A program made the translations under genes and the position numbers. A stretch of DNA of 64,000 bases. Origin: Hygrocybe punicea. Taxonomy: Eukaryota > Basidiomycota > Agaricomycetes > Agaricales > Hygrophoraceae. The notes under the pieces were generated by a model. The model saw only the letters and a list, made by a program, of their open reading frames with translations. It was not told the DNA's origin and ran no database searches. Location of the stretch: NCBI GenBank assembly GCA_963556145.1, contig OY744468.1, positions 2,604,001-2,668,000 of the forward strand. The letters run 5' to 3'. This document shows, in pieces, positions 1,621 through 60,332 of the stretch. Position 1 is the first letter of the stretch; each line of letters begins with the position of its first letter.

Positions 1621-1713
1621 GGTGTTGCCGTGTTGCTGTCATTGTCGTTGTCGATGCGACGCCATAGTTGACACGTCGCCATCCCGGAATGTGTCCTCCC
1701 ACAGGTCCCTACA

Positions 1714-1765
1714 CCTCGCGCGGGCCAGACGCATGTCAATTGACATCGTCGTCACCCTCGCAAGG
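1714..1765. other. Nested palindrome module of E1
   Basis: The core ATGTCAATTGACAT (1733-1746) is a perfect palindrome. Imperfect inverted arms flank it: CCTCGCGCG on the left and CTCGCAAGG on the right. The footprint is 52 bp, as in the other five elements. Confidence 0.8.
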
Positions 1766-1955
1766 TAGACGGGGGGGGACTCTGGTGGGCTTCGCACTCG
1801 GGGGTAACCTTGTTCGCGAGGGGTGGGGGCGCCGCGTGAGCCCTACGCATCAGTTGACGCGTCTGCGCGTGTTTGCGAGGTCCTTGTGTATTCTTCTGTC
1901 CCTGTGTATGCTTCTGTGCTGGAGACCTCGCGAACACGTGTTGATGTGTGTCCGT

Positions 1956-2053
1956 GAGGCGTGGTTGTTGCGATGCGCGGTTGTTGCGAGGCGTGGTTGT
2001 TGTGATGCGCGGTTGTTGCGAGGCGTCGTCGTTGGGAGGCGTGGTTGTTGAGA
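1956..2053 (+). repeat. 16-bp tandem repeats inside E1
   Basis: About six copies of a 16-bp unit alternate between GAGGCGTGGTTGTTGC-like and GATGCGCGGTTGTTGC-like forms. The minus strand reads as CAAC-rich repeats. Confidence 0.85.
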
Positions 2054-3559
2054 GAGTTAGCCAAAGTCTTAGAGGCTGAGTTGGGGGCACGTACCTGGGC
2101 CGTTCGGTGGGCGCACCACCCTCCCGGCCATTCTCCTTCTGTTGCGTTGATGTTGTTGTCGCGTTCTCGTTGTTGTCGCGATCTGGTGGTGGTTCCTGCT
2201 AAAGTAATTAGTTGTCACATATGTGACAACTATTGCCATATCTGGCAGATCTGTATCTGTGGGTCCACGGAGACAAATTAACCGATCCGTACCTGTATCC
2301 GCATGGGTATGGATCGCCACGGATACGGATTTACCCATATCCGTGCCATAGCCTATGTGTAGTTCGAACTTGGAATATTCACTCTCTCGCAGCTGAGATT
2401 CAGCAACCAACATTTCCCATGCTTCTTGCTCGCTTTCTCTATGATCAACTATACCCTAATAATGTTCTCTCTGCATCCCAAGTTCCTCTCAGCACATGTC
2501 CATCATACACGGGCAAGATCAGGGTGCACAATTCAGCTGTTGCCACCTTCCATGCTCCAAGTGATCCCAGTGGAATTGGTGGCATGCATCGTGAGTATAT
2601 CAGGGCTGTACCATCATGGAGAAAGGGTCCCAGTCGGTATGATTGTGTCTTTCTCAATCGCAATCCAGAATTGCCTGGAATACATGGGTTGGATATTGTT
2701 CATGTTCTTCTCTTATTTTCTTTTGACTTCAGTGGCACAACATATCCTTGTGCATTGGTCCATTGGTTTAAAGTTGTTGGTGATGATGCAGATGAGGATA
2801 CAGGGATGTGGATTGTGCAGCCAGAAGCTAATGCTGATAAGTCTCCGGTCCTTTCTGTTATTCATCTTGAATGTGTTGTCTGTGCTACTCATCTGCTTCC
2901 TGTGTTTGGAAATGTTGTCATTCCCAGAGCTCTACACTTTCACCAATCCCTTGACTCCTTCAAAGCTTTCTATGTAAACAGGTTTATTGACCATCATGCT
3001 TTCAAAACAATATAATCTTTGCCTTGGTGATCCTAAAAATGAGGATATTTGCTATATAAATAGAATGTAGCAATGGATCTGTCGACCTCACTAAGCTCAC
3101 TGAGCAAGCTGAGTGCCAGTGTTATGAAGGTCTGTAATACACCTAATCTGCATGTGCATCACCAACTTGATACTCTCTTACAGAAATGGTTGAAATCATG
3201 AAACACATGAAGTGTATCACCTCTTCTGACCAAGAACTTACAGTTGAGGAATGCAATCATTTCTCTGTCACTTGCAAGAATGTCATCAGTGCACATTACA
3301 TGTCATGAAGAATTGTTTCCTCTATCAAGCAAAAATAATAGTCAAAAGAGAATGAGACACAGAGGTAAGAGGCTACTGAGAGAAAATTGAGAGCAAAGGG
3401 ACCAAGATTGGTAAGAACATTCATGAAGTTCTTGATAAAGACCTTATCCATTTCACTACCTCTGGCAAGTCTAAGATGTTCTAAGCCAATATACACACTA
3501 TCTTTAGCTGATTTCTTGGAGCCAGATCTTAGAATGGCTGATTACTATTGTTACCTTAC

Positions 3560-4909
3560 TAGTGTTGGGGAAGTTCGGTCTCAGACCGACCCAAACCCGG
3601 TTTAGACCGAACTGAAACCGCCGGTTTCGGTTTCGGTTTGGGAATTTCTAGCGGAGACCGAACCATTTGGTCTCGGTTTGGGAGATTTGGCCGCGGGCTG
3701 AAACGGTTTCAAACTCAGTTTGAACCGCAAACCGACAGTCTCAAGTCGGTTACTTGGCTGACTTCGAAAGTCACCCAAAGTCACCAACCCCCACCAACAA
3801 CACCCCCGATGTATGCCAAACGAGGACGATGGAGCACCCGAGGTTGACAAAACGGGCGGCGGGGTACTCCCTGCCACCCGCGTATGTTTTTATTTATTTA
3901 TTTATTCGAACTTAACTAACGCTTTAACAAATTACAGGTTGGCGCACCATCACCACGACCACGACCACGACCACCATCATGACGACGACGACGACGATTG
4001 CCACCACGATGGCCGCAACCACCAGGACCGCCACAACCACCAGGACTGCCACGTCGGACGCCAACAACAACGCGTCCAAGATGCGCGCGCACGCAAAGGA
4101 ACGTGAACAGGGTGGAGTGGGAGACAGAGAGGTGGAACGAGTGGCGGGGGGTGGTGCATCCACCCCCGCTCCTTCGTGGTATGTTGTTTGTATCCATTCT
4201 TTTATTGATTTTATTCGTATATAATGGAACGTGGCACCACACCACCACCACCATGCAACACCACCACCACCACCAACACCACCATGCAACACCAATGCGG
4301 CCAACGTGGGGTCAACCTGTCCGTTGCGCGTGTTGTACACGCGCGACGCGTCGGGACATTCACGCGGAGAGGCTCGTACACCACCACCACGCGCCCGCCG
4401 AAAACAACCAACGCGGGTTCAACCCGCCCATTGTCGCGTGCACAATGCATATGACGCGTCGGGACACCACCACCACCTGGATACAACCAAGGTGGGCGGC
4501 CCACCCGAACGTGGCATCATACCACCACCACCACCACCACCACCGCGAAACGCAAATGCGGCCAACGCGGGGTTAACCCGCCCATCGGGTTTAATCCGGC
4601 CACCGGGTTTAACACACCCGCCATCACGTGTACAAGGTGGAGCACCCCAGCACCCCAATCCCACCTCGCAAACGAGCTGGCCACGTCAATTGATGTGTGC
4701 GGCGCCGTTGTGAGGTCAGAATGGCGCAGGGGGGCTGACCACCAACGGTCCGCGGTTCAGACCGCATTTGGACCGAAACCGAACCGATGCAAATGGTTTG
4801 CATCGGTTTCGGTCTGGTTTGGGGATTTTGGGTGGAAAACTGGACCATTCGGTGTCCGGTTTGGGCAAAAAGGCCCCAAACCGGACCAAACCGAACTTCC
4901 CCAACACTA
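3560..4909. mobile_element. Non-autonomous hAT-like element E2 (1,350 bp)
   Basis: The inverted ends TAGTGTTGGGGAAGTTCGGT and ACCGAACTTCCCCAACACTA are perfect for about 20 bp and are flanked by the 8-bp duplication TACCTTAC (3552-3559 and 4910-4917). Subterminal DNA repeats GGTTTCGG/CCGAAACC words. An intron-like segment (3882-3937; GTATGT, CTAAC, ACAG) leads into CCACCA/ACGACC-rich triplet arrays (3940-4560). A palindromic module follows at 4664-4715, 194 bp from the right end. No transposase is encoded; the His/Pro/Thr-rich ORFs are array translations. Confidence 0.88.
4664..4715. other. Nested palindrome module of E2
   Basis: The core is ACGTCAATTGATGT (4683-4696). The outer arms are CCTCGCAAAC and GTTGTGAGG, inverted with one mismatch. 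The footprint is 52 bp. Confidence 0.78.
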
Positions 4910-18325: not shown

Positions 18326-18377
18326 CCTCGCGAATGGCAGGCGCGTATCAATAGATACGGCGCTGCACTTCGCGAGG
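18326..18377. other. Nested palindrome module of E3
   Basis: Perfect outer arms CCTCGCGAA and TTCGCGAGG flank the core CGTATCAATAGATACG (18344-18359), which has one mismatch in the centre. The footprint is 52 bp. Confidence 0.9.
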
Positions 18378-18529
18378 TAGATGGGTGCGGGGGAGCCCTC
18401 CGGTGTTCCCAAGGGATGTGGAGGGACGGGGGGTCTTGTCCCGTGGTCCCTGCGTGGCATTGCCGGCGCTGCTGCTGCCAACCGTTGTCCTCGTCGGGGC
18501 GGTGGTATGGTTGTGGTGGTGTTGCTGCC

Positions 18530-19960: not shown

Positions 19961-20135
19961 TATGTCTTACACCATATAAAATTAAACATCAAGACACATC
20001 AAGATACATTAAGACGTTTCAAGAGAGACTCTGAAGTGAACAAGCAATAACATTCATCATTGACTTGATATCTTAGTTTACTTGATGTCATCTTAAAGTG
20101 TCTTGATTTTCAATTTTATGTGATGTAAGATGCAT
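19961..20135. mobile_element. 175-bp MITE in the right terminal repeat of the DD34E element
   Basis: The inverted ends TATGTCTTACACCATATAAA and ATGCATCTTACATCACATAA (complement) flank short CATCAAGACAC words. TAA occurs on both sides (19958-19960 and 20136-20138). The left terminal repeat lacks this segment, which shows it is an insertion. A 3-bp TWA duplication would suit a PIF/Harbinger-type MITE, but TA is also possible. Confidence 0.75.
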
Positions 20136-23100
20136 TAAGGGATTTTCTTGAAACAAGGGTGAGATCCTCCTTGAAACAAGACTTGTAAGACAGAATAAGA
20201 CAAATAAGACAGAATAAAGTGAAATTAAGTGGAATTGAGTTTTCCTGATGAAGTGGGCAAGGTAACCCTTTTGTAAATATGTCCGCTAGATTTTCTTTGG
20301 AAGGAATATACGTGACTTTGAGAATACCAGACGCGATGTGATCTCGTAGGAAATGTAGATTGATATCTATGTGCTTCGTCCGCGCATGGAATTCTGGGTT
20401 GTGCGATATAGCAATCGCGGCCTGATTATCAGATCGTAAAATCAATGTTTGGTCCGACCGTAGGTCCAATTCCTTCAATAAGTTTCTATGCCAGATTAAC
20501 TGCTTCGTGGCATGAGTAGCGGCGACATATTCTGCTTTGGCTGTTGACAACGCAATCATGCTTTGCTTCTTCGAGCTCCGAGTCACGGCTCCCCCTGTGA
20601 TCGTGAACACATATCCGCTAATGGATTTCCGGTGCGGGTTGGATCCCCAATCAGCATCGATGTAATGAATGGTTTCCATCATAGTCCGTTGGTCCTTTCT
20701 GCCGTACATTAGTTCATAATCCATTGTTCCCTTTAGATAGCGGAATATTCTTTTGAGTGCTGTCCAGTGTTCTGGACTCGGGTTCCGTGTGAATTGCGCA
20801 ACAGTTACAGTTGCATACATGATATCGGGTCTTGTTGCATGCGCAGCATACAAGAGCTCTCCGACTCGTGTTGCATACTCGATCGAGGTGCGTTTCCACT
20901 CGTTCTTATCAGTTTTGGTTTCGTTTATTCATAGAACCACGTTCTGGTTCATTGGGGTTGATACCAGCTTGGCATCCTTCATTCCGGCCTTCGCAAGGAT
21001 CTTCCAGATATAGCGGTCTTGTGATAGAGTGACTTTCCGTTGTTGGTGGTCTCGTTTGATATGGATTCCGAACAGTAACGTTGGCTTTCCGATGACCGTT
21101 ACCGTGTATTTTTCTTTCAACTGGTTGATTACCTGCTGATTCATCGCTCGGTTGTTTGCGTAAGCCGTGAGGTCGTCGACCCATATGAGTACGATGGAAA
21201 AGTTTTCACCTTCCTGATAGTAGTATGCACAGTAGTCAGTCCGCAATCTCGTATAACGAAATTCCTTCATCATGTTATTGAAATCTGTGTTCCATACGTT
21301 TCCGGCTTGCCTGAGACCATATATAGGGCGTATGAGGCGGCAAACCCATCTGGTTACATCCTCAAATTCCACCGGCTGCTTCATGTACAGCTCCTCCTTC
21401 ACCCATCCATTAAGGTATGCGCCTTTGATATCCATCTGCTGGATATCCCAATCCTTGACTGCAGAATATGTGAGCAACGTCCGTAACGTCTCAAACCGCA
21501 TCACAGGAGTGAATGTTCCGGTTTCACTGAAATCCACTCCAGGCTTCTGTGAGAACCCCTGGGCTACTAACCAGGCCTTGTGCCTAGCGATTGCGCCCGT
21601 CTCATTGTGTTTCTGGTGGAAAACCCACTTGCTTCCGATGGCTTCCCACCCCTCCGGTAAGTCTACGAGTTTCCAAATGCCCATTTCCTGTAGCTGATCA
21701 AATTCCTCCTTCATCGCTACCTTCCAGTTCTCCCAATCTACAGCTCCCCTGGCTTCCCTTAAATCCCATGGGTTCTTGTCGGTGAGACTGCTATCCTGCT
21801 GCATTGCGCTCAAGAACGCATATGCTATGGTTGTTCTGCACTGACTTTTTCCTTTTGTTTCGCTGCAGATGATTCCGTTGGTCTCCGTACATCAAGCGGT
21901 TCGCGTATCTCGCGTTGTGTCGGTTGTGCATGCGGGTTGTTTAACTGTCGGTAGTCGCGGTCGACTCCTCATGTTGCTCTTGGTAGGTATGTTATTTCAG
22001 TTTCCGGTCTGCGAATGGCCCTTTCCAGTGCCGTTACAGTGGGTTCCGGTGATTCCGTTGTGGGTTCTGGTGGTTCCAGAGTTTGCGAGTCGTCAGATTC
22101 ACTCTGCTCCCCCTCGAATTGCAAACCCAGTAAGTCGGATACAATCCAGACTTCCTGCAATGCCCCATCCTCGTGAAATGCAACATTCCGTGACATTTTA
22201 ACAGTCCGCATTGTGGCATCGTAGTATTGGATAGCCTTCTGCGACTCCACAAATCCTACAAACTTCATCTTAGCTGATTGCGGTGCCAGCTTTGATCTTT
22301 TTCCACCTTGATATAAGACCCAAACATCACATCCGAGCTCCTGGAAATGCGATACGTCTGGCTTCTTGCCAGTCCAGGCTTCATGCGGAGTCATTCCATC
22401 TAGAGCCTTGGGTGGGGGATTGGTTTTGAATGTATGCCGCATGTGCAACGGCTTCTGGCCAAAGGAATGCGGGCAGGTTTTTAGCGATCAACATCGCGTG
22501 GGCTAACTCCAGTAACGTGCAATTAAATCTTTCCGCCATTCCGTGTTGCAAGGGTGAGTAAGGGGCCATTGTTTCAATGACAATTCCCTTCTCCACTGCC
22601 CATCTCTCAACTTCCTTGTTGACGAGTTCCTTTCCGTTATTGAACCGCAAATATTTAGGGTTTCAATCGAACTTCTTCTCAATCATGTTAACATAAGCCT
22701 TGATGCGTTCCGTCGCCTGGCTTTTCCATTTCATGAATAAAGTGGTTGTGGTGCATGTCGCGTTGTCTGTGAATGAGATATAGTATTTCAATCCTCCGAT
22801 AGACTCTACGCATGCTGGGCCCCAGACGTCGCTCAAAGTCCACTCTCCGGCAACTTTGGATTGTCCATCAGCCTCTTTCAGAAATGGCTGGACAGCTTGC
22901 TTCGCCTGAATGCAAGCCTCACAGGTTCGGGAAGGGACACTGCCTTTGTCGATTTCTAGACCCATGACTAACCCCTTTCTCTGCAGGGTCTTGAGTCCAC
23001 TCATTCCGATGTGTCCGTATAGGCAGTGCCATTCGTCCCAAGACATTTTCTTTGGTTTGGCTACGTTTGCCTTTTCCGGCGTGCGGGATTGCGCTCGGGC

Positions 23101-24064
23101 GTTCAAACAGTATAGTCGTCCGTCTTTCCGGCCTGTTCCGACAAGTTTATTCTCCTTCGTATAGAGCCTGCATATTTTGTTGTGGAAGTTAACCCATCCA
23201 CCGCTTTCATTGAACTGGCTAAGCGATAGTAGCAAGTTCCGTGACTCCGGTACATGTAGTACATCTCATAGCTGGTGCTGTACATCCTTTCCATCCACTG
23301 TGAAGTGTAAGATGATGGTTCTGTGACCAAGAGCTTGAGCAGCTACCTTTCCTAGTCCTTGAACGGTAGCTTCGTCCAGAGTTTTGTACGTGATAAATGC
23401 GTTTCAGGAATTGCTGATGTGACTTGTCGTTCCGGAATCCAGTAACCAATCGTAGTTTGAAATATTGTCTGTATTCACTGCGTATGCTACGTCCTGTAAC
23501 ATATTATTGACATTGTCTGCAGCTTGATTCGATCGGTTCCGTTGGTTTCCACCCTTTCCAGCGCCCTTTCCATTCCCTTTCGGCCCTTGCCCTTCCTTTC
23601 TGCCACCTTTAGACCAGCAGTCCTTTGCCATATGTCCCTTCTTGTGGCAGTTGAAGCATTCCGTTTCGGAATCGGCCACTTTCCGCTTTCTGTTACCCTT
23701 TCCGTCGTGCTTTCCAGTGAACCTCCCGTGCATAGCGACATTGTTAGGATCTCTGCTGTGCTCATGGCGCCTGCGGTCTTCCTCCAATAGGATCGCGACT
23801 AGCTTGTGTGATGTCAGTGACGTTCCATCCTTCTTCAAGCCTAAATACGCTGATGTATACAAGTCCCAACTTTCCGGTAAGGAGGATACTAGGCATATGC
23901 ACGGGTTTTCAAACCCGCGTGGGTCTAGACCCACGGGTTCCATGGGTATGGGTACGGGTTATGAAATTCAACCCGCAACTAACCCGTACCCGGCACTGCA
24001 GGTATGGCAGGTTGCTGATGGGCATGTTGTTTTTTAATATATTATTATTTATTACTACTATTAA

Positions 24065-24872
24065 TTACAGCCGTTTTAGTAATTCATGGCAGTAACTGGA
24101 TTTTTTTTCATCAATTGAGAAATTTGGACTTAGTGGAATTTCCAGTGCTGAATCTTGTATCTCATGAAATACTGTATGGATTGAGATGGTTATAGAGGGA
24201 AAGTTGTACTATTTCTTAAGGGCTATCTACTCCTATCATTACATTTGGACAATATTTAGTGTTTGGTGACTTGTGGATGAAACAAAAGGTAAACCAGTAC
24301 TTTTTGACACCCAAAATGATATTGTCAAATTATGCTATCAAATGAGCTCATATGAAAAATATTGTAGGGAGAAACTTCTTCAGTTTTTCAAGGGCTAGAA
24401 GTACAAATACCGTGTTTTCCTTCATTTTTGTCCTTGGAGCCAACATTGCATCTGTACTATGTTTGTCTGCATTAGGCTTGAAATATTACATGAATTTTAA
24501 ATGTTGGCTCCAAGGACAAAAACACGGTATTTGTACTTCTAGCCTTTGAAAAACTGAAGAAGTTTCTCCCTACAATATTTTTCATATGAGCTCATTTGAT
24601 AGCATAATTTGACAATATCATTTTGGGTGTCAAAAAGTACTGGTTTACCTTTTGTTTCATCCACAAGTCACCAAACACTAAATATTGTCCAAATGTAATG
24701 ATAGGAGTAGATAGCCCTTAAGAAATAGTACAACTTTCCCTCTATAACCATCTCAATCCATACAGTATTTCATGAGATACAAGATTCAGCACTGGAAATT
24801 CCACTAAGTCCAAATTTCTCAATTGATGAAAAAAAATCCAGTTACTGCCATGAATTACTAAAACAGCTGTAA
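24065..24872. mobile_element. 808-bp near-perfect palindrome inside E4
   Basis: Two arms of about 380 bp mirror each other (TTACAGCCGTTTTAGTAATT at left, its complement with one mismatch at right), with a loop of about 45 bp around 24450-24496. AT-rich, no ORF of note. It looks like a foldback/MITE inserted in E4; I could not define a target duplication. Confidence 0.85.
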
Positions 24873-25555
24873 ATACTACAAAATAATTTTTTTGAGGGGA
24901 TTGAATGGGGATTTTGAGCCACTTATATAGGGATTTCAATGGCGCACGGACCATGTGACTTTATTTGGTCACTGGGTGCCAATCAACAAATGCATTTCTG
25001 ACAACACGCGTCACCGCCAACCTCACAACCACACTTCTCGAACGCATTACCACCAACGATGCCAACACCCACACCAACATCAACGCACCCACACCAACGC
25101 CAACACAATTGCCCACGGCATTGGCAACGGCCACGATGTCACCACACCGATCACCTCAAACGTGGCACCACCAACAATACGCAGCGAAAGCAATAAGGAG
25201 CAGCATGGGATGGTGCACCCACCCCCGCTGCCAAAGGTAAGTTTTTATTTATACATCTATAACTAGTAACTAACACCAGGCTCACCCAACCACGCCAGCA
25301 CCAAACGCCAACGACACCAACGCCAACTCACCCATGCCAACGCCAACCCAATCGCCCACAGCAATGGCAACGGCCACAATGCCAGTAATGGCCACAATGC
25401 CAGCAACGGCCACAATGCCAGCAACAACGCCAACACCCACACCAACAAAGCCCACGCACGGTGACGCACCCACGCCAACGCACCCACACCAATGCCAACG
25501 CAACCACCCATGGCCACATCGGCATCGACAGTGCCAGCACCACCCACCCAACTCA

Positions 25556-25608
25556 CCTCGCGGACACGCACCGCCACGTCAATTGACGTTGGCACTGCAT
25601 CTGCGAGG
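25556..25608. other. Nested palindrome module of E4
   Basis: The perfect palindromic core ACGTCAATTGACGT (25576-25589) lies between arms CCTCGCGGA and TCTGCGAGG (one mismatch). The footprint is 53 bp. Confidence 0.88.
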
Positions 25609-26458
25609 TAATGGGAGAAAGGTGGTGCCCAGCACCATGATGATGTCGCGGGTACAGACAGTACCCGTGACCCGCATCTAATTCCGGGACCCACGGGACC
25701 CGCCAGTCAACCCGCCAGTCAACCCGCATCCAACCCGTACCCGTGGCAGCGGGTATGGGTATTAGCCAGGTCGGGTACGGGTCGGCAAAAATTACCCATG
25801 GGTAACCCGTGCTAATCCCTAGAGGATACAAGTATCATCGCAAAATCTTTGTTGGAAATGAGGCTTCCCATCAAGTGGAGTTCCTCCTGCAGTTTCTGGA
25901 GCTTCAATATGTGCTCAATTAGGTCGAATCCTTCTTCAGCAATCAACCGGTACAATGCATGTCGCGTCGCTAATATTCCGAGCTTCCCCCTGGATTCCTT
26001 TACCAAGGTTAGCTGCTTCCACATCTCACTCGCCGTGTGTGCGCCAATGATATGTATCATTTCCGCATCGCCAATGATATGTATCATTTCCACGTCGCCA
26101 ATGATATGTATCATTTCCGCGTCACTAATTGTGAGCCTGATCTGCGTCCTCATCTTGGCATCTCCACTGTGCCATTTCTTCATTGCCTCGGATTCCTCTG
26201 ATGTTGGACAGGATGTGTCTGCTGGGACAGGGGCCTTTGATTCTGCATCGATGTACGTCTCTAACCCAAGATCCCGAAGCACAGCTAACATCTGTCTCTT
26301 CCACGGCATCCAATTGTTTCCCTTCAATAACTCGATCCAGTATGATCCCGATGTGTGCATGACTTTGTCCATCATAGTCGGCTAGTATACAAGGTAATAA
26401 TGCGATGTTTGGAGGTGCGTGATCATGTTTCTGTTAAAGCCGTTCAGGGCTCATAACC

Positions 26459-28153: not shown

Positions 28154-29080
28154 TAGGGTTGACCACGGGTTTGGGTCAACCCGCAGTATTACCAAAACGG
28201 GTTGCGCGGGTACGGGTATGGTGTTTGGTTTCATCACCCGTGACCATACCGTCACCCGTACCTGCAGTGTCACGGTTTTCACGGGTATGTCAACACACGA
28301 CGACGACTACAACAATGACTACAACAACGACCGTGACGACTACAACAACGACCGTGACGACAACAACAATGACCGTGACGACAACAACAATGACAACTAT
28401 GAACACAAAACAACAGCAACAACAACGACTACAACGACAACTACAACGACAACTACAACGACAACGACCACAACGAGTTTATGCATGGCCGGGAAAACAG
28501 CCAGTGAGGTGGTACGCCCACCCTCTGGCTGTCAGGTACGTCAATTATCATCATCTCATTAAACTGGCTTGTGCTAATGCTTGCTACTTTATTATTTTTA
28601 TTTAGTTTCATTGCTAAACGGCGGCGGCACGTCGTGGCGACGACGGCGACACGACGCAACGGCAACGGCGACACGACGCAATGGCGATGGCGACACGACA
28701 CGACAACGACGATGCTGTTAACATGACAATACGACGACCCAACACCAACGTCGTCGACGTCGGATCTGGCCCAGTGGCCAAGCCGTTCCAGCGATGATGG
28801 TGGAAGTTGGCAGGTGCATCGAGAGGCCGAGGGCGGCAGAGCCGTCGCAAAACAAACCAGCCATGTCAATTGACGTGTGCTGGGTGTTTGCGACGACTTT
28901 GGGCACACCCTGGCTCCGAAAAAACCGGGGGACCACGGGTTTGGACAGACGGGTACGGGTAACCAGGGCACCGAGGGTCAGAACGGACGGTACGGGTTGT
29001 ACCCGTTATGGGTGCGGGTTCAGCGGGTATGGGTGCGGTGTTGGCCATGCCAACCCGTCACGAACCCGTGGTCATCCCTA
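28154..29080. mobile_element. Non-autonomous hAT-like element E5 (927 bp)
   Basis: The ends TAGGGTTGACCACGGGTTTG and, inverted, TAGGGATGACCACGGGTTCG are flanked by the 8-bp duplication CCCACACT (28146-28153 and 29081-29088). Subterminal ACGGGT words resemble E4. It has an ACAACGACC-type array (28290-28470), an intron-like segment (28536-28605; GTACGT, GTGCTAATG, TTTAG), a CGACGGCGACACGACG-type array (28615-28740) and a module at 28843-28895, 185 bp from the right end. Removal restores LTHTKCDILL of LINE ORF2. Confidence 0.92.
28843..28895. other. Nested palindrome module of E5
   Basis: Arms CGTCGCAAA and TTTGCGACG are perfectly inverted but differ from those of E3/E6. The core is ATGTCAATTGACGT (28863-28876). 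The footprint is 53 bp. Confidence 0.87.
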
Positions 29081-32000
29081 CCCACACTAAATGCGACATT
29101 CTGCTAATACAGGAACCATACTTCGACCATTACGGTAACACGAAAGCCACACACAACTGGAGAGTCATATACCCACCCGACCAATTCACCTCCGAAGCAC
29201 CCACCCGATCAGTAATCTTTGTTAACACCAAACTCAACACCAACTACTGGGAACAGATAAAAATCCACGGTTCCAACGACCTCACGGCGATCTGAATCAA
29301 AAGCCCAACAGGCAACTTCTCCATCTTCAACATTTACAATGAATGCCATCACTCCAACACACTCAACACCCTCCACTACTTCACCCAGGCCCACAAAGCG
29401 ACCCTCCACCAACGAGACACGGACCATATGTTATGGTGCGGCGACTTCAACAGACACCACCCTCTATGGGACAGAGAGCGAAACCATCACCTATTCACCA
29501 CCAACGCCCTAGCCCAAGCAAGACTACTCATTGAAGCCACAGCTGACTGCGACATGATAATGGCACTACCCAAAAACCTCCCCACCCTCGAATCCATGGC
29601 AATGAAGAACTGGACCAGAACAGACAACGTCTTCTGCACCACCAAAACAAGCAACCTCATACTTTCCTGCAATACCAGACCAGAACTACGCCCAACCGGC
29701 ACCGACCACATACCGATATCCACCTCCATCACTCTCCACCCACAACTAAGACTTGACAAACCATCACGAAACTTTCGCAACACAAACTGGGACACGTTTC
29801 GCACCCACCTTGACACTCAACTACGACAACACCCCCCTACACCCCCCATCACTTCCCAACAACAACTAGATGACGCCATATCCACACTGACCAATGTACT
29901 ACAGTCAACTATCAAAGCCGTAGTCCCCATCTCCACACCATGCCCGCACTCAAAACGATGGTGGACTCCGCAACTAAACCAGCTTAAACGAGATAAAAAC
30001 AGGCTAAGTCGACTATCTTATAAGCACCGAATAGACGCCGCTCACCCCAGCCACGATGAACATAGGGCCGCACACAATCTATACGGTAATGAAATCCTCA
30101 AAGGCAAAGAAAAGCACTGGTCAGCCTTCCTCGACGAAGCGAGCGACAACGACCTCTGGACAATCAACAAATGTGTATCCAATCCCATCAGCAACAACCC
30201 CAGAGGAGATGGTGGCAAGAGCTCCATCCCCACCTTGGAAATAACCCACCCGGACGGCCACACAACCTACGCAACGTCGAATGAAGACAAGAGCTGGGCC
30301 ATCGCTAACTCCTTCTTTCCCCCCCCACCTGAACACTCCTCGGTCCCAATAGACTACGTATACCCAGATCGAGTCCCCTACACGACGCACATCTCCAAAG
30401 ACCTTATCACCAAACACCTCACCAAAATACTCCCCTTCAAAGCCCCGGGCCCAGATGGTATCCCAAACATCGTACTCAAAGAATGCACAGCACTCATTTC
30501 GGACCACATCCACAACATCTTCAACGCCATTCTCACACTCAACATATATTACGCCCATGGAAGGACTCCATCACCAGCGTGCTACGCAAACCGGATAAAC
30601 CAAGATATGACATCCCCAAAGCCTATCGCACCATCGTATTACTCAACATCCTCCCAAAACTACTGACATCTATCATCGCAGAAACCATAACGACCATGGT
30701 CGAAGAACACCAACTCCTACCCTCCCACCACTTCGGCAGGCGACCCGGACGAACCACCACTGACTCCATGCACATCCTAGTTCATCGAATCAAACACGCC
30801 TGGCGGAATAAAAGAGTAGCCGCAATTCTATTCTTCGATATCGAAGGGGCATTCCCGAACGCGGTCACGGAGTGGCTGCTCCACAACATGAGAAAAAGAT
30901 GCATTCCCGAACCCATTATCCAACTCATCAACAACATTCTAACGGACCGCACAACCCACCTCGCCTTCGACGACTATATCTCCGGCCCGATACACCTCAA
31001 AAATGGCATCGGCCAAGGCGACCCAATATCCATGATAATCTACTTATTTTATAACGCTGACTTACTCGACATCCCCACAGGAAAACACGAACTCGCTGTG
31101 GCATTCGTAGATGATGCCGCCATATACGTAGAGGGCAAAAACTTCACGGCAACCAACAGACTCATCAAGAACATCATGACAAAGCAAGACGGAGCCTTCA
31201 GCTGGTCCAAGGACCACAATTCTAAATTTGAAACCAGCAAATTCGCGCTGATAGACTTCTCACAGTGCAGCAACGTATCGAGACCCCCACTCGCGCTCAA
31301 CGACACTCTCATTAAACCCGTAAAGACACACCGTTTCCTCGGCATCATCATGGACCAGCACCTCCGATGGCACAAACAGCGAGAACACGCAATCGCCAAG
31401 ACCACCAAATGGATCCATCTCTTCCACAGAATAGCACAGCCCAAATCAGGCGTTCCCAGAAAGCTAATGCGACAGCTATACACGGCCGTGGCTATCCCAA
31501 AAATGACCTATGCAGCCGACGTTTGGTACACCCCGGTCCACAAGACAACAAACGGCACCCAATGAAAAGGCTCGGTCAGAGCGATGCGCGAGCTCACAAA
31601 AACCCAATGCCTGGCATCTATACCCATCACTGGAGCCCTCAGAACTACACCAAACGACCTACTTGATCTCCACGCTGGCATTCTGCCCGTCGACTTACTA
31701 ATGCACAAAGTTTGTCACAGATCGGTCATCAGAATGGCATCCCTCCCCGCCTCACACCCACTACACATTCCTATACGACGCTGTGCGAAACACCTTGTCG
31801 CCAGACACAGATCCCCCCTCCACACACTCACCCACCTCTTCCAAATCGACCCACATGACATAGAACACATACGCCCAACGCACTCACATACCCCCCCCCT
31901 TTCCACACCTCCATACCCGACACCAGAGACAAATCCATAGAACAACACGACAACGACAAAGCAGACATAAAAATATACTCGGACGGCTCCACACTCGAAG

Positions 32001-32879
32001 AAGGCGTGGGCACAGTGGCGGTCATTTACCGCAATGGACGTACACAAGCCAGAACACTCCACTATCACCTAGGACCCAGCGACTCTCACCACAACGTCGA
32101 GGCAGAAAACATAGCTGGCACCCTCGCCATACACTTACTAAGCCGTGAAATACTCCTACGTGACGTCTCCATTTACATTGATTGCCAACCGACAATACGT
32201 GCACTAACCTCCACCAGAACAAGCCCTAAATCCGGTCAACACACATTAGACATCTTCCACAAAGCGGTCCGACGTCTTACCGACACCAACCACCTCCTCG
32301 TTATTACTATCAAATGGATATCAAGCCACAGTGGCGTCCCCGGGAACGAACAAGCCGACACAGAGGCCAAAGCAGCAGCGAGAGGAACCACCAGCCCACG
32401 ACACTCCCTACCCCACGCCCTTCGACTCAAACCCCTGCCCTCCAACGCCTCAGCCCTCAAACAATCATTCAATAAACAACTAATAATACAATGGAAGGAC
32501 GCCTGGCAACGATCACCCCTTTAACAAATTCCTTAAAACCACACTTGACTTAAATCGCCCCCAGACCAGTCTAATCACACAAATACGCATGGGACATCTC
32601 CCGCTCAACGCCTATCTACACAAAATCAAGAAATCCGATACCGAAATTTGCCCCAAATGCGCCCAAGCGAAGGAAACCATACACCACTTCCTCTTTGACT
32701 GTCCACTCTACCGTAACGCACCTCACTCACTGACTAACACACTTAGAACACAAGCCCGATCCCTCACCTACCTCCTCAATAACAAAAAAGGCATATCAGA
32801 GCTATTAAAATTCGTACACCGTACAGGCAGACTTAAAGATTCCTTCGGTGACATTCGCAACCCGATCCATACTTGACTA

Positions 32880-33235: not shown

Positions 33236-35440
33236 CCTTACAGCATATCTTTTCCACAAGACATGGCTCAGCTGAGAGGGACAATTCCCACTCCAAGTGG
33301 GCCAGCCAATCTCGGACAACCAATATCTTTCTCCAGGGGAGATGGCTTGGCCGAGGGGTCTATGTTCTGAGGGACATGAGTTGGCCGAAGCAGGGGGATA
33401 TATTGGCCAACCGGTCTGGATATTTTGGCTGGCCATGGGAGATGGATTGGCCGACCGGTCTGGGTATCTTGGCAGGCCATGGAACATGGATTGGCCGACA
33501 GCCCAGGGTAATTTGGCTGGCCATGAAAGGTGGATTGGCCAACATGTCTGGGTATTTCAGCTGGCCATGGAACATGGATTGGCCGATGGGTCTGGGTATG
33601 TTGGCTGGCCATGAAAGGTGGATTGGCCGACGGGTCTGGGTATTTTGGTTGGCCATGGAACATGGATTGGCCGACGGGTCTCAGTATGTCGGCTGGCCAT
33701 GAAGGGTGGATTGGCCGACAGGTCTGGGTATTTTGGTTGGCCATGAAAGGTGGATTGGCCGACCACACTGGGTATTTCGGTTGGCCATGGAACGTGGGTT
33801 GGCCGACGGGTCTGGGTATGTCGGCTGGCCATGAAAGGTGGATTGGCCAACAGGTCTGGGTATTTTGGCTGGCCATGGAACGTGGGTTGGCCGACGGGTC
33901 TGGGTATTTCAGCTGGCCATGGAACATGGATTGGCCGACGGGTCTGGGTATTTGGGTTGGCCATGGAACATGGATTGGCCGACGGGTCTCAGTATGTCGG
34001 CTGGCCATGAAAGGTGGATTGGCCGACAGGTCTGGGTATTTCAGCTGACCATGGAACGTGGGTTGGCCGACGGGTCTGGGAATTTTGGTTGGCCATGAAA
34101 GGTGGATTGGCCGACCACACTGGGTATTTTGGTTGGCCATGGAACATGGATTGGCCGACGGGTCTGGGTATTTTAGCTGGCCATGGAACGTGGGTTGGCC
34201 GACAGGTCTGGGTATTTTAGTTGGCCATGGAACATGGATTGGCCGACGGGTCTCGGTATGTCGGCTGGCCATGGAACGCGGATTGGCCGACAGGTCTCAG
34301 TATGTCGGCTGGCCATGGAACGTGGGTTGGCCAACAGGTCTCGGTATGTCGGCTGGCCATGAAGGGTGGATTGGCCGACAGGTCTGGGTATTTTGGTTGG
34401 CCATGAAAGGTGGATTGGCCGACGACACTGGGTATCTCGGTTGGCCATGGAACACGGATTGGCTGATGGGTCTGGGTATTTCAGCTGGCCATGGAACATG
34501 GATTGGCCGACGGGTCTGGGTATTTGGGTTGGCCATGGAACATGGATTGGCCGACGGGTCTCAGTATGTCGGCTGGCCATGGAACATGGATTGGCCGACG
34601 GGTCTCAGTATGTCGGCTGGCCATGAAAGGTGGATTGGCCGACAGGTCTGGGTATTTCAGCTGACCATGGAACGTGGGTTGGCCGACGGGTCTGGGAATT
34701 TTGGTTGGCCATGAAAGGTGGATTGGCCGACCACACTGGGTATTTCGGTTGGCCATGGAACGTGGGTTGGCTGACGGGTCTGGGTATGTCGGCTGGCCAT
34801 GAAAGGTGGATTGGCCAACAGGTCTGGGTATTTTGGCTGGCCATGGAACGTGGGTTGGCCGACGGGTCTGGGTATGTCAGCTGGCCATGAAAGGTGGATT
34901 GGCCGACAGGTCTGGGTATTTTGGCTGGCCATGGAACATGGATTGGCCGACGGGTCTGGGTATGTCGGCTGGCCATGAAAGGTGGATTGGCCGACAGGTC
35001 TGGGTATTTTGGCTGGCCATGGAACATGGATTGGCCGACGGGTCTGGGTATGTCGGCTGGCCATGAAAGGTGGATTGGCCAACAGGTCTGGGTATTTTGG
35101 CTGGCCATGGAACATGGATTGGCCGACGGGTCTGGGTATGTCGGCTGGCGATGAAAGGTGGATTGGCCGACAGGTCTGGGTATTTAGGCTGGCCATGGAA
35201 CATGGATTGGCCGACGGGTCTGGGTATGTCGGCTGGCCATGAAAGGTGGATTGGCCGACAGGTCTGGGTATTTAGGCTGGCCATGGAACATGGATTGGCC
35301 GACGGGTCTGGGTATGTCAGCTGGCCATGAAAGGTGGATTGGCCGACAGGTCTGGGTATTTCGGTTGGCCATGGATTGGCCAATCCTGGTTAGTATACCA
35401 TCAGCCATGGGACATGGGTTGGCAAATACCATATATTGGC
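33236..35440 (+). mobile_element. Repeat element F: leader plus 44/88-bp tandem array
   Basis: A unique leader starts near CAGCATATCTTTTCC and includes CAATTCCCACTCCAAGTGGG, followed by about 45 copies of a 44-bp unit (33420-35370). Units alternate as an 88-bp dimer: one half ends GGCCATGGAACATGGATTGG, the other GGCCATGAAAGGTGGATTGG. The right half is highly homogenised at 88-bp spacing, while the left half is more mixed. An inverted copy with the same leader lies at 53565-54165, so this is a dispersed mobile unit. No TIR, target duplication or coding function could be fixed. Confidence 0.85.
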
Positions 35441-35532: not shown

Positions 35533-38500
35533 TTACTCCATCTTGTTGGAAAAGGCAGTTTCTGCTTGTGCTATCATATTCCTCCACATTACCATTTGTT
35601 TTTCCGCATAACAGATGTGCCCCATCAGTCCCAGACTAACTTTGTCACAACGTGCTTCCCATTGCACCTTCTAGTGTTGCAGCCAACGAATCACGTTACC
35701 CATTTCTGACTTGACGCTTTGCAATTCTTCAGACCACCGATCATATCTGGCCTTGCCACAGAGCCAGTTTACACGATACACTGTATAGCAGTAAGATCTT
35801 CCATGAATTGCTGTAGCAGAACCATTCACCTTCTTGCATCCAATCGTTGTCACCAGTATTATTCCTTTCTTTCCTCCGCCAGATCCAGGGCAGCTTGTGA
35901 CTCCTCTGGCCCACTCTATTCTCCTCAAGCATATCAACACTCATCTTGATATCCTCCTGCCTCAGCACTTTGAAATGATCCAAAATGTCTGCATTCCCCC
36001 CTAGATTGACCAATGCTCGATGAGCCTGCCTGTAGCTGGTGGCATATTTACCAACTTTTTGCTGGATGGCATGTATGTCGTCCCATGCTCGAGTCTTCTT
36101 CTTCTGGCTGTTTGCTCCACGAACAGAGGTTCGAAAGATTACCATTTTCTCACCCAGTGTCATCCTCAAGTTTTCCAAACAATCGTTTACTTGGCCCACC
36201 CTGAGTTCCACCTCCTGAGCCACCAAATATTCCAAACCCAGCCGAGCACATTCCTCCACTCCTAAGGTCGATGGCATTGTGAGTCAGCAATTTTCTGGCC
36301 ATTCTGCAACATGGTCATCATCTTCTTCATCTACCCCACCCTCCTCATCCACATCCACAATCCAGTCATCAGCAGTGGGATCATAATTGACCAGATTACA
36401 CTCATCCACATCTTCACCAAGTATTCCTTGTATTTTTCTGTGGAACGAGTCGATCCGAGACTGCACTCTATTTTGCCGATCCTCCAGATTTGCCTTGTCT
36501 GTGAAACTGCCCGTTTTTTGAACAGCACGAGCTGTTGTTTTCAGAGTATTCCTGTAGGGTAAAAAAATGTCAAAGAGATGATCGATGAGAATGAGGATAC
36601 ATCCTACTGTGCTTGTTCTATGTTTATTCCTTCATTTAAGATGGTCACCCGACCAGCCATTACATCTTTGGGATTCCCTGTCATCAGTCTCAACCTGATC
36701 TCAGCCTGCGATGGTGCTGGTGAAACATCATTACCGTGTCCAAAACACCAACACTTTACAAGACAAACCTTTCTCCATTCTGACGTTGAATACCCTCAAG
36801 TAGTCACCACGGAAATCCATTGCCCTTCTTTCTTCTTCCTTCCACTCTGCCAGCACTTGCTCATCCACAGTTTTGGAAAGCTCCTCAAAGGCTGCCTTCA
36901 TTTCCTGCATTCCATCTACTGCTTTATCATATCGTTTCAACAAAGACCGAACTGTGTGACAGCTATGGTGATGATATGTATTGATGACATGCCTATGAAT
37001 CACCTACCCATTCCTACCAACTTCTTCCAATTCGAATCCCTCATAAGGTCATCCAAGATCTCACGTCGTTGGGATTTTGACATGAAACGAATAAAACTGG
37101 AAATCTTGTTGATGATAGCCCACAGTGTCTCCAAAATTTCACCATCCTGCTGACCAGCACCACGAACGAAGTTGAGACTGAATAGGGCAAAACACTTGGC
37201 AACATGTGCACCAAGATGAAACTTGCCCACAGCCCCAATGATCTCAAGCGCCTCAGGGAGAGTGAGGTGGTCGGAATCGGAAACCCTTTTAGCAAAATTG
37301 ATCAGCCAACTGCAGGCAATATCATATTCCACCAGTGCTTGGGTGATACCACTGTGGCACAGCCTATTGAGAGCGTTGCATATCGAATAATCAATGTTCA
37401 TGTGTCTGGTGCAGACTCTTTAATAAATTTGTCACGATTCATAGCTCAAAATACATGACTAACCGTTCACCCTTCTGGAAGTCGACGACACTGTGGGGTA
37501 CAAAGCAACCATGCTTAGCACATGCACATGCACTGATGCCAGTAGCGTATAAGTTATGACGATTGGCGTTTGCTTGGTTGACGGCCTTGTGATTGGAGCA
37601 CTGTGACCTCTGATACATGATTATTGATTTAGCATTCACGAAATTCACAATTCGATAAATACCTCTTTGGACTCCAGGGAAGATGCCAGATGAGCACGAT
37701 AAGGTGCATCCTCAACCATATAGCCTTGTCCATCGATAAGCCCAACGTCGTCATCAGGCTTCCGCATGTTAATCTGCTCAGCTTTGAAATTGCCATCGAC
37801 GACAATGCTGGGCCTGTAAAGCCACCTGTTTCCCTGTTTGGTGTGGAACTACATGAAAGCTGATCAGAATGACCCACTGATGCGGTCTATCCATCCAGTT
37901 CTGCGGAAGATTTATCCCTGGCTGGGGACATGCAGGGCAAAACAATGCCAGATCGCCATTACCAGGCTCCCTCTCAGTGTCATGCCCAAAGCCGAATCGT
38001 TTCTTGAGGTGCAAGTATCGCCACTGTCTTGACACCCTCATTAGCTCACGATAACGATCCTGAACACCATAACTCAGTACTCCGTTCTGTATGCACAATG
38101 TAACAAAACAACTAGTATATCACGAACCGGCAATGTATCTGGAAATGCATTGGAAGACAGTCTCCTTAACTTGTTATAAAAGTTGTTTGCAGACGTTTTG
38201 CACTCCATCGAATCAATGTAGAAATGATCCAGGAGCTGGAAAGTGAATGCTGACAACGGCCATTTTGCTGTTGCAGGATACAAATGCATTCGAAGTAGTT
38301 GAATATCTCGAGTGGGGGCATCTGGGCAGGAGCACCATCGGATTCGACGTCGGTAAATTCCATTCGTATGAGTGACAGTTATGATATCTTCCTCGGCGTG
38401 AACTGCCAAAGCCGGATCCAAATCGTCCTCCTCACCACCACCTGACATAAGAACATCATGCAGATATGTATCTTCGACAGATGGCTGGGGGCCATCTTTT

Positions 38501-39096
38501 CTGTATGACGGACAATCGCCTCCACCATGGCCAAGACGCATGACCAGGCCAATCGTATTAAGGTCATGTTTCAGGAAACATCTGCCGTTCCATATCTCAA
38601 TTCTGTGGAATGGATTATGAATGTGTGTCTGCAAACAACAACACTGGCAGAATGAAGGGCAACCATAGCAATCAGGGCAACGAATGGTGATATCGGCCAT
38701 CAGACATGACTGGCATGTAACATCGGAAGGGGGGGCCTCAGATGATAAGAGTTCGGAGAGGTATTGCTTGTGAATCGCTTTCCAGGCTTCCATTTCATCA
38801 TTCTGTGTCTAATTGACATGCAATCAAAATCAAGTCGTACAGATAATAGTTGTGTCAACCTTTCCACGCTTATTGCGATGTCTCCTTGTCTGAGGGTCCT
38901 CCTCTTCCACAAACGACGTTGAGGGCAAGGGAAGATCTTCACTCCTGTGTGATTGTTTTACAGGACTTGGCGGACGAATAACTGGACAAGCCTTGACTGT
39001 CTTTCCACCTCGTTTCTTTTCCACCACCATAAATTCAACCTCTCTGGCAAATTCCTTTTTTTTTCCCGACCAGGAAATGACTTTTGATTTCGGCAT
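35533..39096 (-). CDS. KDZ-family transposase with cysteine cluster (multi-exon, damaged)
   Basis: The start at 39096 gives a basic N-terminus, then after an intron the Cys-rich cluster VTCQSCLMADITIRCPDCYG followed by CPSFCQCCCLQTHIHNPFH (CxC2-like). The central part reads RVSRQWRYLHLKKRFGFGHD and LFCPACPQPGINLP. The catalytic core has VVDGNFKAEQI (first Asp, about 37790), VEYDIACSW (second Asp, about 37330) and QQDGEILETLW (Glu, about 37140), then RREILDDLMRDSNWKKL. The C-terminus includes PSTLGVEECARLGLEYLV and RTSVRGANSQKKKTRAW. Many introns of about 50 bp. TGA at 36284 and TAG at 35671 interrupt the C-terminal part; they fit CGA and CAG. KDZ enzymes mobilise large fungal elements; the upstream Ulp1-like gene on the same strand fits such an element. 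Confidence 0.85.
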
Positions 39097-53564: not shown

Positions 53565-54165
53565 ACCTGTTGCATTTGTGGCAACACTGTTCCATGGCCA
53601 GCCAAAATACCCAGACCTGTCGGCCAATCCACGTTCCATGGCCAGCCGAAATACCCAGCCAGGTCGGCCAATCCATGTTCCATGGCCAGCTGAAATACCC
53701 AGACCCGTCGGCCAATCCACCTTTCATGGCCAGCCAAGATACGTAGTCTGGTCGGCCAATCCATGTTCCATGGTCAGCCGACATACACAGGGTAGTTGGC
53801 CAATCCATGTTCCATGGCCAGCCAAGATACGTAGTCCGGTCGGCCAATCCACATTCCATGGCCAGCCGAAATACCCAGCCAGGTTGGCCAATCCATGTTC
53901 CATGGCCAGCTGAAATACCCAGACCCATCGGCCAATCCACCTTTCATGGCCAGCCAAGATACCCAGCACAGTTGGCCAATCCATGTTCCATGGCCAGCCA
54001 ATATATCCCTCTGCTTCAGCCAACCCATGCTTCTCTGAACATGGAACCCTCGGCCAAGCCATCTGCCCTGGAGAAAGATATTGGTCGGCCGAGATAAGCC
54101 AGCCCACTTGGAGTGGGAATTGTCCATCTCGGCTGACCCATGTATCATGGAAAAGATATGCTGAA
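53565..54165 (-). mobile_element. Second copy of repeat element F (inverted, short)
   Basis: On the minus strand the same leader (CAGCATATCTTTTCC, CAATTCCCACTCCAAGTGGG) is followed by about nine 44-bp units (GGCCATGGAACATGGATTGG type). It interrupts the Gypsy reading frame near 54180. The array ends abruptly near 53590 at GTGTTGCCACAAATG, so this copy is either shorter or truncated. Confidence 0.8.
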
Positions 54166-58207: not shown

Positions 58208-59055
58208 TGTGTATTAGAGGTATAGAAATGCTTGGGTTATTTAAATTTAAAATCCCTCGCGGTGGGCTCCAATTTTGTTATGTGAATGTTTGTTTCACCA
58301 AGAATTACCGGAGTTGACTTTGTTCAGGTACCTTCTTGTTGTTCATGGGTTTCTAATATTTAAATAACCTATCAGGAAGGGGTTTGTGGGTATATGTACT
58401 ATATGAATCAATAGAATGTAATAGTGAGGTCTCTTCAATTAAGAATTGAGACTTTGAGTAGGTATGAATAGTAATTGGGTGTGTGATGTACTGAAAATAC
58501 TAATATTCACTACTGGAATATAAAAATATGAACTAATGAATATTGATAACAATATTCACCAGTTGAATATGGATGGTTTTGGCTACAGGGCCTATTCAAT
58601 CAAGAGTATCTCTGGGTATTATAATATCTGACTTAAATCCGAAGCTTCAAACGCACATTGGCTACTAGTTCAGGGATATCTTTAATACCTTTTGAATACT
58701 CTGTTTTGTTTAGGATGAAACCTTAACCTTAGAAGTGTATCTAGCTGACTAATGCTGACTAATGAATTGATTGGACTGAGTGAACTGGTGAATTCTCCTT
58801 GATGACAAAGGGAACTCAGAGAATGATAGAATAAGAGTGAACTAGACTGGATTGCAAGCACTTAGTGTTGCCGAAGTTCAGTTCGGTCCGGTTCCGAGCC
58901 TTTTTGGCGGAACCGCGAACTGAACTTCGGGTCCGGTTTGGCGCATGGCCAAACCTGGACCCGAACGGCTTTGAACCGTCTCTTCGCGTTCGGTCTGGGG
59001 TTCAGACGCGGTCTGAACCCCAGACCGAGGTTGGCTCACCCCTGAGCTCCGTTCT

Positions 59056-59107
59056 CCTCGCGAATGGCAGGCACGTATCAATTGATACGGCGCTACGCTT
59101 CGCGAGG
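59056..59107. other. Nested palindrome module of E6
   Basis: Perfect arms CCTCGCGAA and TTCGCGAGG flank the perfect 16-bp core CGTATCAATTGATACG (59074-59089). The footprint is 52 bp. This is the cleanest copy of the module in the window. Confidence 0.92.
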
Positions 59108-59129
59108 AAGTTGGGCTACGGGGGAGCCG

Positions 59130-59511
59130 TCTGGTGCTGTTGCTGCTGCTGCTGCCGCTGCCACTGCTGGTGCTGCTGGTGCTGCTGCCGTCGCCGTCGC
59201 TGCTGCGCTCCTGCTGCTGCTGTTGCCGTTGCCGCTGCCGCTGTTGCTGCTGCTGCCGGCATTGCTGCTGCTGCTGCTGCTGCTGGCCGTCGTGGTGGTG
59301 GTTGCCGTTGTTGTTGCCGCCGCTGATGGTGAGGTTGGGGCTTGATGCACCAGCAGCAGCTGCTGCTGCTGCCGGTGTTGCTGCTGCCAGCGTTGCTGCT
59401 GCTGCTGCTGCCGGCGTTGCTGCTGCTGCTGCTGCTGTTGCCGCCGTTGCTGCTGCCGCCGTTGCTGCTGTTGCTCCTGCGCTCCTGCTGCTGCTGCTGC
59501 CGCTGCCGGCA

Positions 59512-59543
<32 letters not shown>

Positions 59544-59643
59544 GCCGTTGCTGCTGCCGCCGTTGCTGCTGTTGCTCCTGCGCTCCTGCTGCTGCTGCTG
59601 CTGCTGCTGCCGCTGCCGGCGCTGCTGCTGCTGTCGTGGCCGT

Positions 59644-59674
<31 letters not shown>

Positions 59675-59800
59675 GTTGCCGTTGCCGTTGCCGTTGCTGC
59701 TGTTGCTGCTGCGCTCCTGCTGCTGCTGCTGTTGCCGTTGCCGCTGCCGCTGTTGCTGCTGCTGCCGACATTGCTGCTGCTGCTGCTGGGCGTCGTGGTT
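59130..59800 (+). repeat. CTG/CCG triplet array in E6
   Basis: Long uninterrupted CTG runs (up to about nine) alternate with TTGCCG and CCGGCG words. Segments of roughly 120 bp (GCTCCTGCGCTCCTGCTGCT type) recur, suggesting recent internal duplication. Confidence 0.9.
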
Positions 59801-60332
59801 GTTGTTGCCGTGGTTGTCGATTTGCCTGTCGCAAATAACATTAGTAAAGTTAAGAAACAAAGGAAACTTACCTTGAGGAACACAACACAATTTGTTGTGT
59901 TCAATCCGCGTTGATGTTGCTGTGTCGCGTGAAAGCTACTACGGCCGGTCACATGATACCGTTTAACACGAAATGGTAAGTAAAGAAATATGAAAAACAA
60001 ATGAAATAAATTCCTTAAAAATATCCGCGTTCGCGGTTTGGACGCGGTTTGGAGCCGTTCAGGAAATCCGGCCAGCCTCGAAACCCTGAACCGAACCCGC
60101 GGTCCGGTTCAGCATTTGGCTGAACTTAGACTGAACCCCGGGTTCGGTTCGGGGTTTGAACCGGGTTCGGCTAGGTTCGGAACCGAACTACGGCAACACT
60201 ACAAGCACTAGCTACTACAATGAGTAACTACTAGTACTAAGAGAATGAGGGATCACACTGTGTGAACCCAACTAAGAGTGACTACTGAGTGGTGAGGGGG
60301 GAAATCCTACTGACTACTGGAATTTGGGGGCC

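Follow-up and report, generated by a model that had tools for sequence, protein, structure and literature searches.

A two-fold-symmetric palindrome in transposase-less hAT-type elements of Hygrocybe punicea: a possible binding site for a dimeric protein

A palindrome of 52–54 bp recurred in hAT-type elements of Hygrocybe punicea that had at least two classes of termini and in which no transposase was found. We tentatively favour, at somewhat less than even confidence, the reading of this module as a conserved two-fold-symmetric DNA site to which a putative dimeric, trans-acting protein would bind; an RNA hairpin, and mutation alone combined with hitchhiking, are serious rivals. Six modules were present in the window (the whole stretch of DNA analysed, 64,000 nucleotides), one in each of the elements E1 to E6, at the coordinates and with the lengths of the original prediction (52, 52, 52, 53, 53 and 52 bp). 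All six were confirmed in the sequence and with a covariance model, and they are listed here without strand, together with two degenerate copies:

1714..1765, palindrome module of E1, 52 bp
1832..1880, degenerate module-like copy within E1 (covariance model E 0.071)
1926..1991, degenerate module-like copy within E1 (covariance model E 0.0083)
4664..4715, palindrome module of E2, 52 bp
18326..18377, palindrome module of E3, 52 bp, core TCAATAGA
25556..25608, palindrome module of E4, 53 bp
28843..28895, palindrome module of E5, 53 bp, arms CGTCGC/GCGACG
59056..59107, palindrome module of E6, 52 bp, the copy on whose coordinates the original prediction was placed

The host elements were delimited as follows:

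1041-2355, minus strand, E1, non-autonomous hAT-type element, TSD TGTGTAGT; strand assigned from the second motif (see below)
3560-4909, plus strand, E2, non-autonomous hAT-type element, TSD TACCTTAC, TIR 20/20
18138-19650, minus strand, E3, non-autonomous hAT-type element, TSD GAGAAGAC; strand from the module position only
23890-25821, plus strand, E4, non-autonomous hAT-type element, TSD GAGGATAC
28154-29080, plus strand, E5, non-autonomous hAT-type element, TSD CCCACACT
58863-60201, minus strand, E6, non-autonomous hAT-type element, TSD CAAGCACT; strand from the module position only

All six elements had the perfect 8-bp duplications and TAG...CTA ends that had been claimed for them. Their terminal repeats were of two broad types, TAGTGTTG..GAAGTT-like in E2, E3 and E6 and TAGG..CACGGG-like in E1, E4 and E5. 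The proposed position close to one end was borne out for E2 to E6, whose modules lay 194, 188, 213, 185 and 193 bp from the nearer end, with E1 (590 bp) as the exception. Other parts of the original prediction stood in a narrower form. The common centre was a near-constant TCAATTGA, which E3 replaced with TCAATAGA; the footprint, said to be always 52–53 bp, was so for the six modules of the window, but 54-nt and 51-nt forms occurred elsewhere; and the interiors, described as unrelated, were only partly so, E3 and E6 being one family and E1, E2, E4 and E5 sharing a second motif. In the covariance model that had been suggested as a check, built from 29 modules including those of the window, the six scored E 3.9e-08 or better, each on its better strand, and the rest of the window yielded the two degenerate E1 copies and nothing more at E ≤ 0.1. 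Parts of the half-site were near-invariant across the 29 aligned modules.

The window also contained a 360-nt inverted repeat (99%) nested in E4 (24059-24878), a 2182-nt inverted repeat with 100% complementarity and arms 2.6 kb apart (9740-11921 and 14564-16745), which is recent or assembly-related, and a 44-bp minisatellite array (33314-35375) that had a relative in inverted orientation at a distance of 18 kb (53588-54029). Copia-type and LINE-type reverse transcriptase-like frames were recognized by eye at 20116-21891 and 29296-32524. The stretch 38074-38808 matched the CxC2 domain (PF18803, E 1.4e-25), a cluster of cysteines found in association with KDZ transposases.

Genome-wide, in 92.2 Mb distributed over 42 contigs, the arm pattern CCTCGC-N40..42-GCGAGG occurred 1552 times, compared with 10 times for the reversed control. 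Arms with the exact core were found 1110 times and ACGTCAATTGACGT alone 558 times, each with 0 in the control, and three mononucleotide shuffles of the window and 20 further loci gave no module matches. Thirty shorter spacings, summed, gave 438 matches vs 42 in the control, many of the matches listed being unrelated repeats. Among the 66 forward matches listed, 33, 22 and 11 were 52, 53 and 54 nt long, the only lengths admitted by the pattern. Extra hairpins with CCTCGC-type stems, other loops and shorter spans were present in the L015, L016 and L022 elements, for example a 34-nt form with a TCAA loop. The exact module pattern had no match in viral contigs or in bacterial and archaeal genome contigs, and word matching in open-licence PMC papers retrieved no title or abstract opening that describes such a module.

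The location of 46 modules was determined in the window together with 20 further regions, all from contig C1; these regions were chosen for holding modules, and the counts therefore give the share of modules in elements and not the share of hAT elements with a module. Most modules (39 of 46) lay within intact TA..TA elements, contradicting the possibility, raised with the original prediction, that they occur mostly outside hAT elements. Among the other seven, L021 and L022:5370 were situated in copies of known elements, the L008 module and both L023 modules had the second motif upstream, and the sequence upstream of L016:6699 resembled the part of L022 that immediately precedes the second motif; L016:7916 was alone in having no such element evidence. 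With a complete duplication (8/8) and a TIR of at least 12/16 required, 32 TA..TA elements were recovered, 26 of them with a module (26 of 33 in a recount under a different merging order), and the shifted-duplication control recovered no TA..TA element. The module nearest an end was 136-234 bp away from it in 22 of 25 elements, the exceptions being E1, L006a and L022, and tandem modules approximately 100 bp apart also occurred. Exact TAGTGTTGCCGAAGTT ends numbered 700 genome-wide; 25 of these were on C1 below 2.98 Mb, where an exact-arm module followed within 600 bp inward of 14 and outward of none (random mean 0.30). In three of six element families the module was a local conservation peak (F4, F5 and, more weakly, F2), and in F1, F3 and F6 it was no more conserved than its surroundings. 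The observed/expected CpG ratio was 1.01 for module elements (n = 25), 0.86 for autonomous elements (n = 6) and 0.63 for surrounding tiles (n = 23); CpG depletion failed to separate the hypotheses and was discarded as a discriminator.

Transposase-bearing relatives were sought among a minority of the PF05699 matches in the genome, of which there were at least 152; six of those examined lay in elements with clear ends. L038 and L040 (3267 and 3326 bp; one family, 98% alike) had the TAGTGTTGCCGAAGTT ends of the E3/E6 type and PF05699 matches within, placing a hAT transposase between termini of this type; such a transposase-bearing partner was matched to some, not all, of the end types that carry modules. 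L033, L034 and L042 (2950, 2963 and 2651 bp; one family, 94-99% alike) had TAGTGTTRCCGCRACT-like ends, and L032 (2753 bp, TAGGGTATAACACGGG ends, duplication AACCTGGA) was a complete hAT element at 764-3516, nested in an E3-type element. The 722-codon transposase frame of L034 had relatives in Amanita muscaria (50% identity), other mushroom-forming fungi and JGI metagenomes (88-91%). Amanita and the other matched mushroom genera are Agaricomycetes. The module was missing from all six copies, representing three families, and modules in those loci fell outside them; the autonomous, module-carrying relative that the original prediction suggested looking for was thus not among these copies. Three short elements (320, 454 and 469 bp) lacked the module too. 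The hAT matches without clear ends (L026-L031, whose sequences were cut short, and L035, L036, L037, L039 and L041) gave no covariance match at E ≤ 0.1, and one of them, L036, had one weak module string (score 7); these loci carry no weight in either direction.

None of 25 module-bearing elements, a set that leaves out the 3.6-kb nested element in L009, had similarity to transposases in tblastn searches (1e-3) with 88 protein queries, namely 29 open frames of transposase-bearing elements and 59 database homologues of the L034 transposase. As a positive control, the 59 homologues alone matched all six transposase-bearing elements. The ten long frames of E1 to E6 contained no transposase domain at E ≤ 0.1 and no convincing Pfam domain: a match of an E5 frame to PF21827 (9.7e-08, just over the cut-off) fell on a threonine-rich stretch and was taken as compositional, and a match of an E2 frame to a DUF (0.0028) was below the cut-off. 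The module-bearing elements are non-autonomous.

The arms of the module remained paired while their sequence drifted, as had been predicted. For the pairing tests, 74 module strings were collapsed to 66 unique modules, from which 26 representatives differing from one another by more than 9 edits were taken. Because these do not stand for wholly independent lineages, the pairing figures set upper bounds on strength. Among the representatives, arm positions 7-12 matched their own partner at 0.58 vs 0.44 after derangement, and the core flanks at 0.68 vs 0.49, with 0 of 5000 derangements as good in either case. Agreement at arm positions 7, 8 and 9 was 0.81, 0.85 and 0.65 within modules, compared with 0.55, 0.57 and 0.51 for the halves of other modules; at core-flank positions 7 and 8 it was 0.85 and 0.73, compared with 0.48 and 0.42. 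Arm positions 1-6 were mostly set by the search pattern and carry little weight. Whole modules folded at -29.1 kcal/mol with their own partner and at -23.0 kcal/mol with foreign halves (0 of 5000 as good). Spacer pairing was not significant position by position (639 of 5000 derangements as good); with bulges allowed, spacers in a constant frame folded better with their own partner than in all but 2 of 5000 deranged sets, or all but 53 of 5000 when the one perfect palindrome was removed. The derangement, folding and double-change tests (the last described below) all exceeded the expectation from a shared consensus, and the derangement controls speak against the view that pairing reflects common ancestry only. 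A third arm beyond 53 bp was judged too weak, with flanks of the same module aligning only slightly better than those of different modules (14.8 vs 12.4 over 30 bases, 18.4 vs 17.0 over 50 bases and 24.8 vs 23.1 over 80 bases).

Paired stems could also serve at the RNA level, as a hairpin in the 3' part of a spliced, probably non-coding element gene. We regard this as unlikely on balance. With the module placed towards the 3' end, a second palindrome, GTGG-TGCRY-CCAC, followed by a splice-donor-like GTRNGT, was found upstream in 18 of 25 elements and was absent from seven (E3, E6, L011a, L012, L013, L014 and L018). In 11 of the 18, a CTAAC-like branch site (CT[AG]AC) followed 32-39 bases on. 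Many second motifs folded with a longer stem that was variable yet paired. The window contained four copies:

2107..2119, minus strand, second motif of E1, GTGGTGCGCCCAC hairpin, then donor-like GTACGT
4151..4163, plus strand, second motif of E2, GTGGTGCATCCAC; donor-like GTATGT from 4179
25210..25222, plus strand, second motif of E4, ATGGTGCACCCAC; donor-like GTAAGT from 25237
28509..28521, plus strand, second motif of E5, GTGGTACGCCCAC; donor-like GTACGT from 28536

The strict form of this motif occurred 489 times genome-wide vs 0 in the control. Of the 31 strict motifs located on C1 below 2.98 Mb, 12 were followed at 70-431 bp downstream by an exact-arm module, and none was preceded by one within 1 kb upstream (random mean 0.58). 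Since the module lies downstream of splice-like signals, it may be transcribed. A coding interpretation was rejected: many elements read VV[HRL]PP or a close variant in the frame of the second motif, but no conservation was seen beyond it, and the open length upstream in this frame ranged from 10 to 118 codons. Compensatory stem changes, as expected of a structured RNA, were present in the module itself. In 18 ungapped 52-nt modules, with relatedness left in, double changes were observed in 9 of 15 stem pairs (0 of 500 shuffles) and 90.7% of cells were paired vs 84.5% after shuffling; of the five pair measures, one, further pair types, was not above the shuffles (14 vs 15.3; 487 of 500).

The strand tests argue against an RNA role, under which C-to-T changes on the sense strand (leaving G.U) should outlast G-to-A changes (leaving A.C). 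Across 59 modules, whose orientation was assigned from the element or from similarity, mismatched stem pairs were unbiased (44 G.T vs 42 A.C). The sense strand folded no better than the antisense strand, either for the module (17:18, p 0.92, 37 modules) or for the second motif (9:16, p 0.13). These tests drew on 37-59 modules, and a weak bias could escape them; the RNA reading was rejected as far as it predicts strand asymmetry in mismatches or fold energies. An RNA hairpin would, moreover, have no need of invariant stem ends and core, and the window had no Rfam match at the gathering score, the matches around E6 all being below threshold. A DNA-level site would be expected to show no strand bias, and it is favoured by this result in combination with a footprint that is fixed and with hexamers and a core that are nearly constant.

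The other serious rival, which we consider rather unlikely, requires no selected site: the module would hitchhike in successful elements while polymerase template switching keeps its arms alike. The mechanism itself is described in the available portion of PMC8794818, where template switching at quasi-palindromes keeps arms alike without selection; the likeness to our module is that arms are corrected together and perfect copies arise. In the subfamily of C1:2374777, a given half occurred on one arm only in 8 of 9 loci and on both arms in 1 of 9, in a comparison made on module sequences without their flanks. The copy with both arms, C1:2374777, was a perfect 54-bp palindrome and looks like the product of a template switch at a DNA hairpin. 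Template switching, and not selection, may thus account for part of the covariation, and the unremarkable conservation of the module in three of the six families fits a mutational origin too. As a mutational process, however, template switching as presented in that portion of the source (PMC8794818) is insufficient alone for constant hexamers and core: the constancy of CCTCGC and TCAATTGA in diverged modules of fixed footprint is left unexplained, with the qualification that the searches required the arms.

It also leaves unexplained that unlike elements share the module alone. In 18 hand-picked element pairs, E3/L006b (81 bp, 85%) and L011a/L015 (66 bp, 88%) had little in common beyond the module and a few flanking bases. 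A common interior was shared between elements with different ends in L011a/L010 (391 bp, 85%), L006a/L017 (371 bp, 81%) and L022/L015 (386 bp, 78%). The interior shared by E3 and L014 (616 bp, 80%), again with different ends, consisted mostly of triplet repeats and the module. E4 and L033, which have similar ends, had two separate stretches in common, one of 77 bp (82%) with the module and one made up of the last 90 bp. By eye, several block edges coincided with the second motif or the module end.

A DNA hairpin or cruciform, acting as a replication or resolution site for a structure-specific enzyme, appears improbable. Stems paired around a near-constant centre and covariation that extends into the spacers, bulges included, would suit such a structure, but the exchange of halves at the core that site-specific recombination should leave was not seen among the 66 unique modules. 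Where two modules differed by no more than 3 edits in one half, they differed by no more than 8 in the other; at exactly 4 edits, ten pairs had the other half 9-12 edits apart, a range also filled by background. Halves were not reassorted among close modules, and modules therefore seem to travel whole.

In the available part of PMC10368747, hAT transposases bind palindromic subterminal repeats asymmetrically, and Hermes has a left-end quasi-palindrome (LE-STR1-STR2) that is bound by pairs of BED domains, lies at bp 11-27 from the end and is required by its own transposase. Our module resembles that site in being palindromic, in a hAT element and asymmetric between ends, and in its proximity to one end, but it is 52–54 bp long, lies approximately 190 bp inside and is missing from the transposase-bearing relatives examined. 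A transposase-binding site or enhancer of the Hermes kind, one of the functions originally proposed, is therefore very improbable: 0 of 6 transposase-encoding copies in three families carry the palindrome, the L038/L040 family lacking it despite its E3/E6 terminal repeat and the three short elements lacking it as well, which indicates that the transposases of the six copies do not need it.

For the dimeric-protein reading that we favour, we envisage that each half would be contacted by one subunit of the putative protein, which would recognise both the outer hexamer and the inner CGTCAA. Such a protein would be supplied by the host or by another element, and its binding may help transposase-less elements persist, for example by opening chromatin or by recruiting a second factor. 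Arm symmetry may in part have been restored by template switching at a DNA hairpin. Against this reading stand the absence of the module from the transposase-bearing relatives and the modules of F1, F3 and F6, which do not stand out from their surroundings. The better folding of spacers with their own partner favours a hairpin or template switching, since a protein site alone needs no spacer pairing.

By analogy, the closest known case of trans recognition of a non-coding motif is VANC-type anti-silencing, which would be a hypothetical role here. According to the available part of PMC5735166, VANC motifs of Arabidopsis VANDAL elements are non-coding, are read by a sequence-specific protein and have spread by tandem repeats; the likeness lies in a non-coding motif within a DNA transposon and in the tandem modules found here too. 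The VANC motif differs in comprising 9 bases and forming dense arrays in the same orientation, and that part of the source mentions no palindrome (PMC5735166). Agaric hAT derivatives have been described in Marasmius oreades: in the available text of PMC9674265, MarorhAT-4/11/12 are non-autonomous hAT elements thought to be mobilised via matching terminal repeats, and they resemble the present elements in being agaric hAT derivatives. They differ in their size of 597-631 bp, and no palindrome is mentioned in that text (PMC9674265). New here are the transposase-bearing hAT copies without the module and the finding that the interiors are not all unrelated.

A further proposal, which we put forward as speculative and somewhat unlikely, is that transposase-less hAT elements carry a gene-like cassette in which the donor palindrome is combined with the 53-bp palindrome towards the 3' end; this cassette would behave as a second-order parasite, passing between families with different ends and using any hAT end. 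The palindrome would dock a putative trans factor conferring an advantage for which transposase-bearing elements have no need. The usual picture of a non-autonomous DNA transposon is one of two ends separated by filler; in the present elements, whose ends differ, that filler often contains two palindromes in a constant order, and the clearer of the two is missing from the transposase-bearing relatives examined. With more than 1100 copies, the module offers a rich natural record for telling selection for a palindrome apart from template switching. Provided that the site is functional, transposase-less elements would possess cis-acting equipment of their own.
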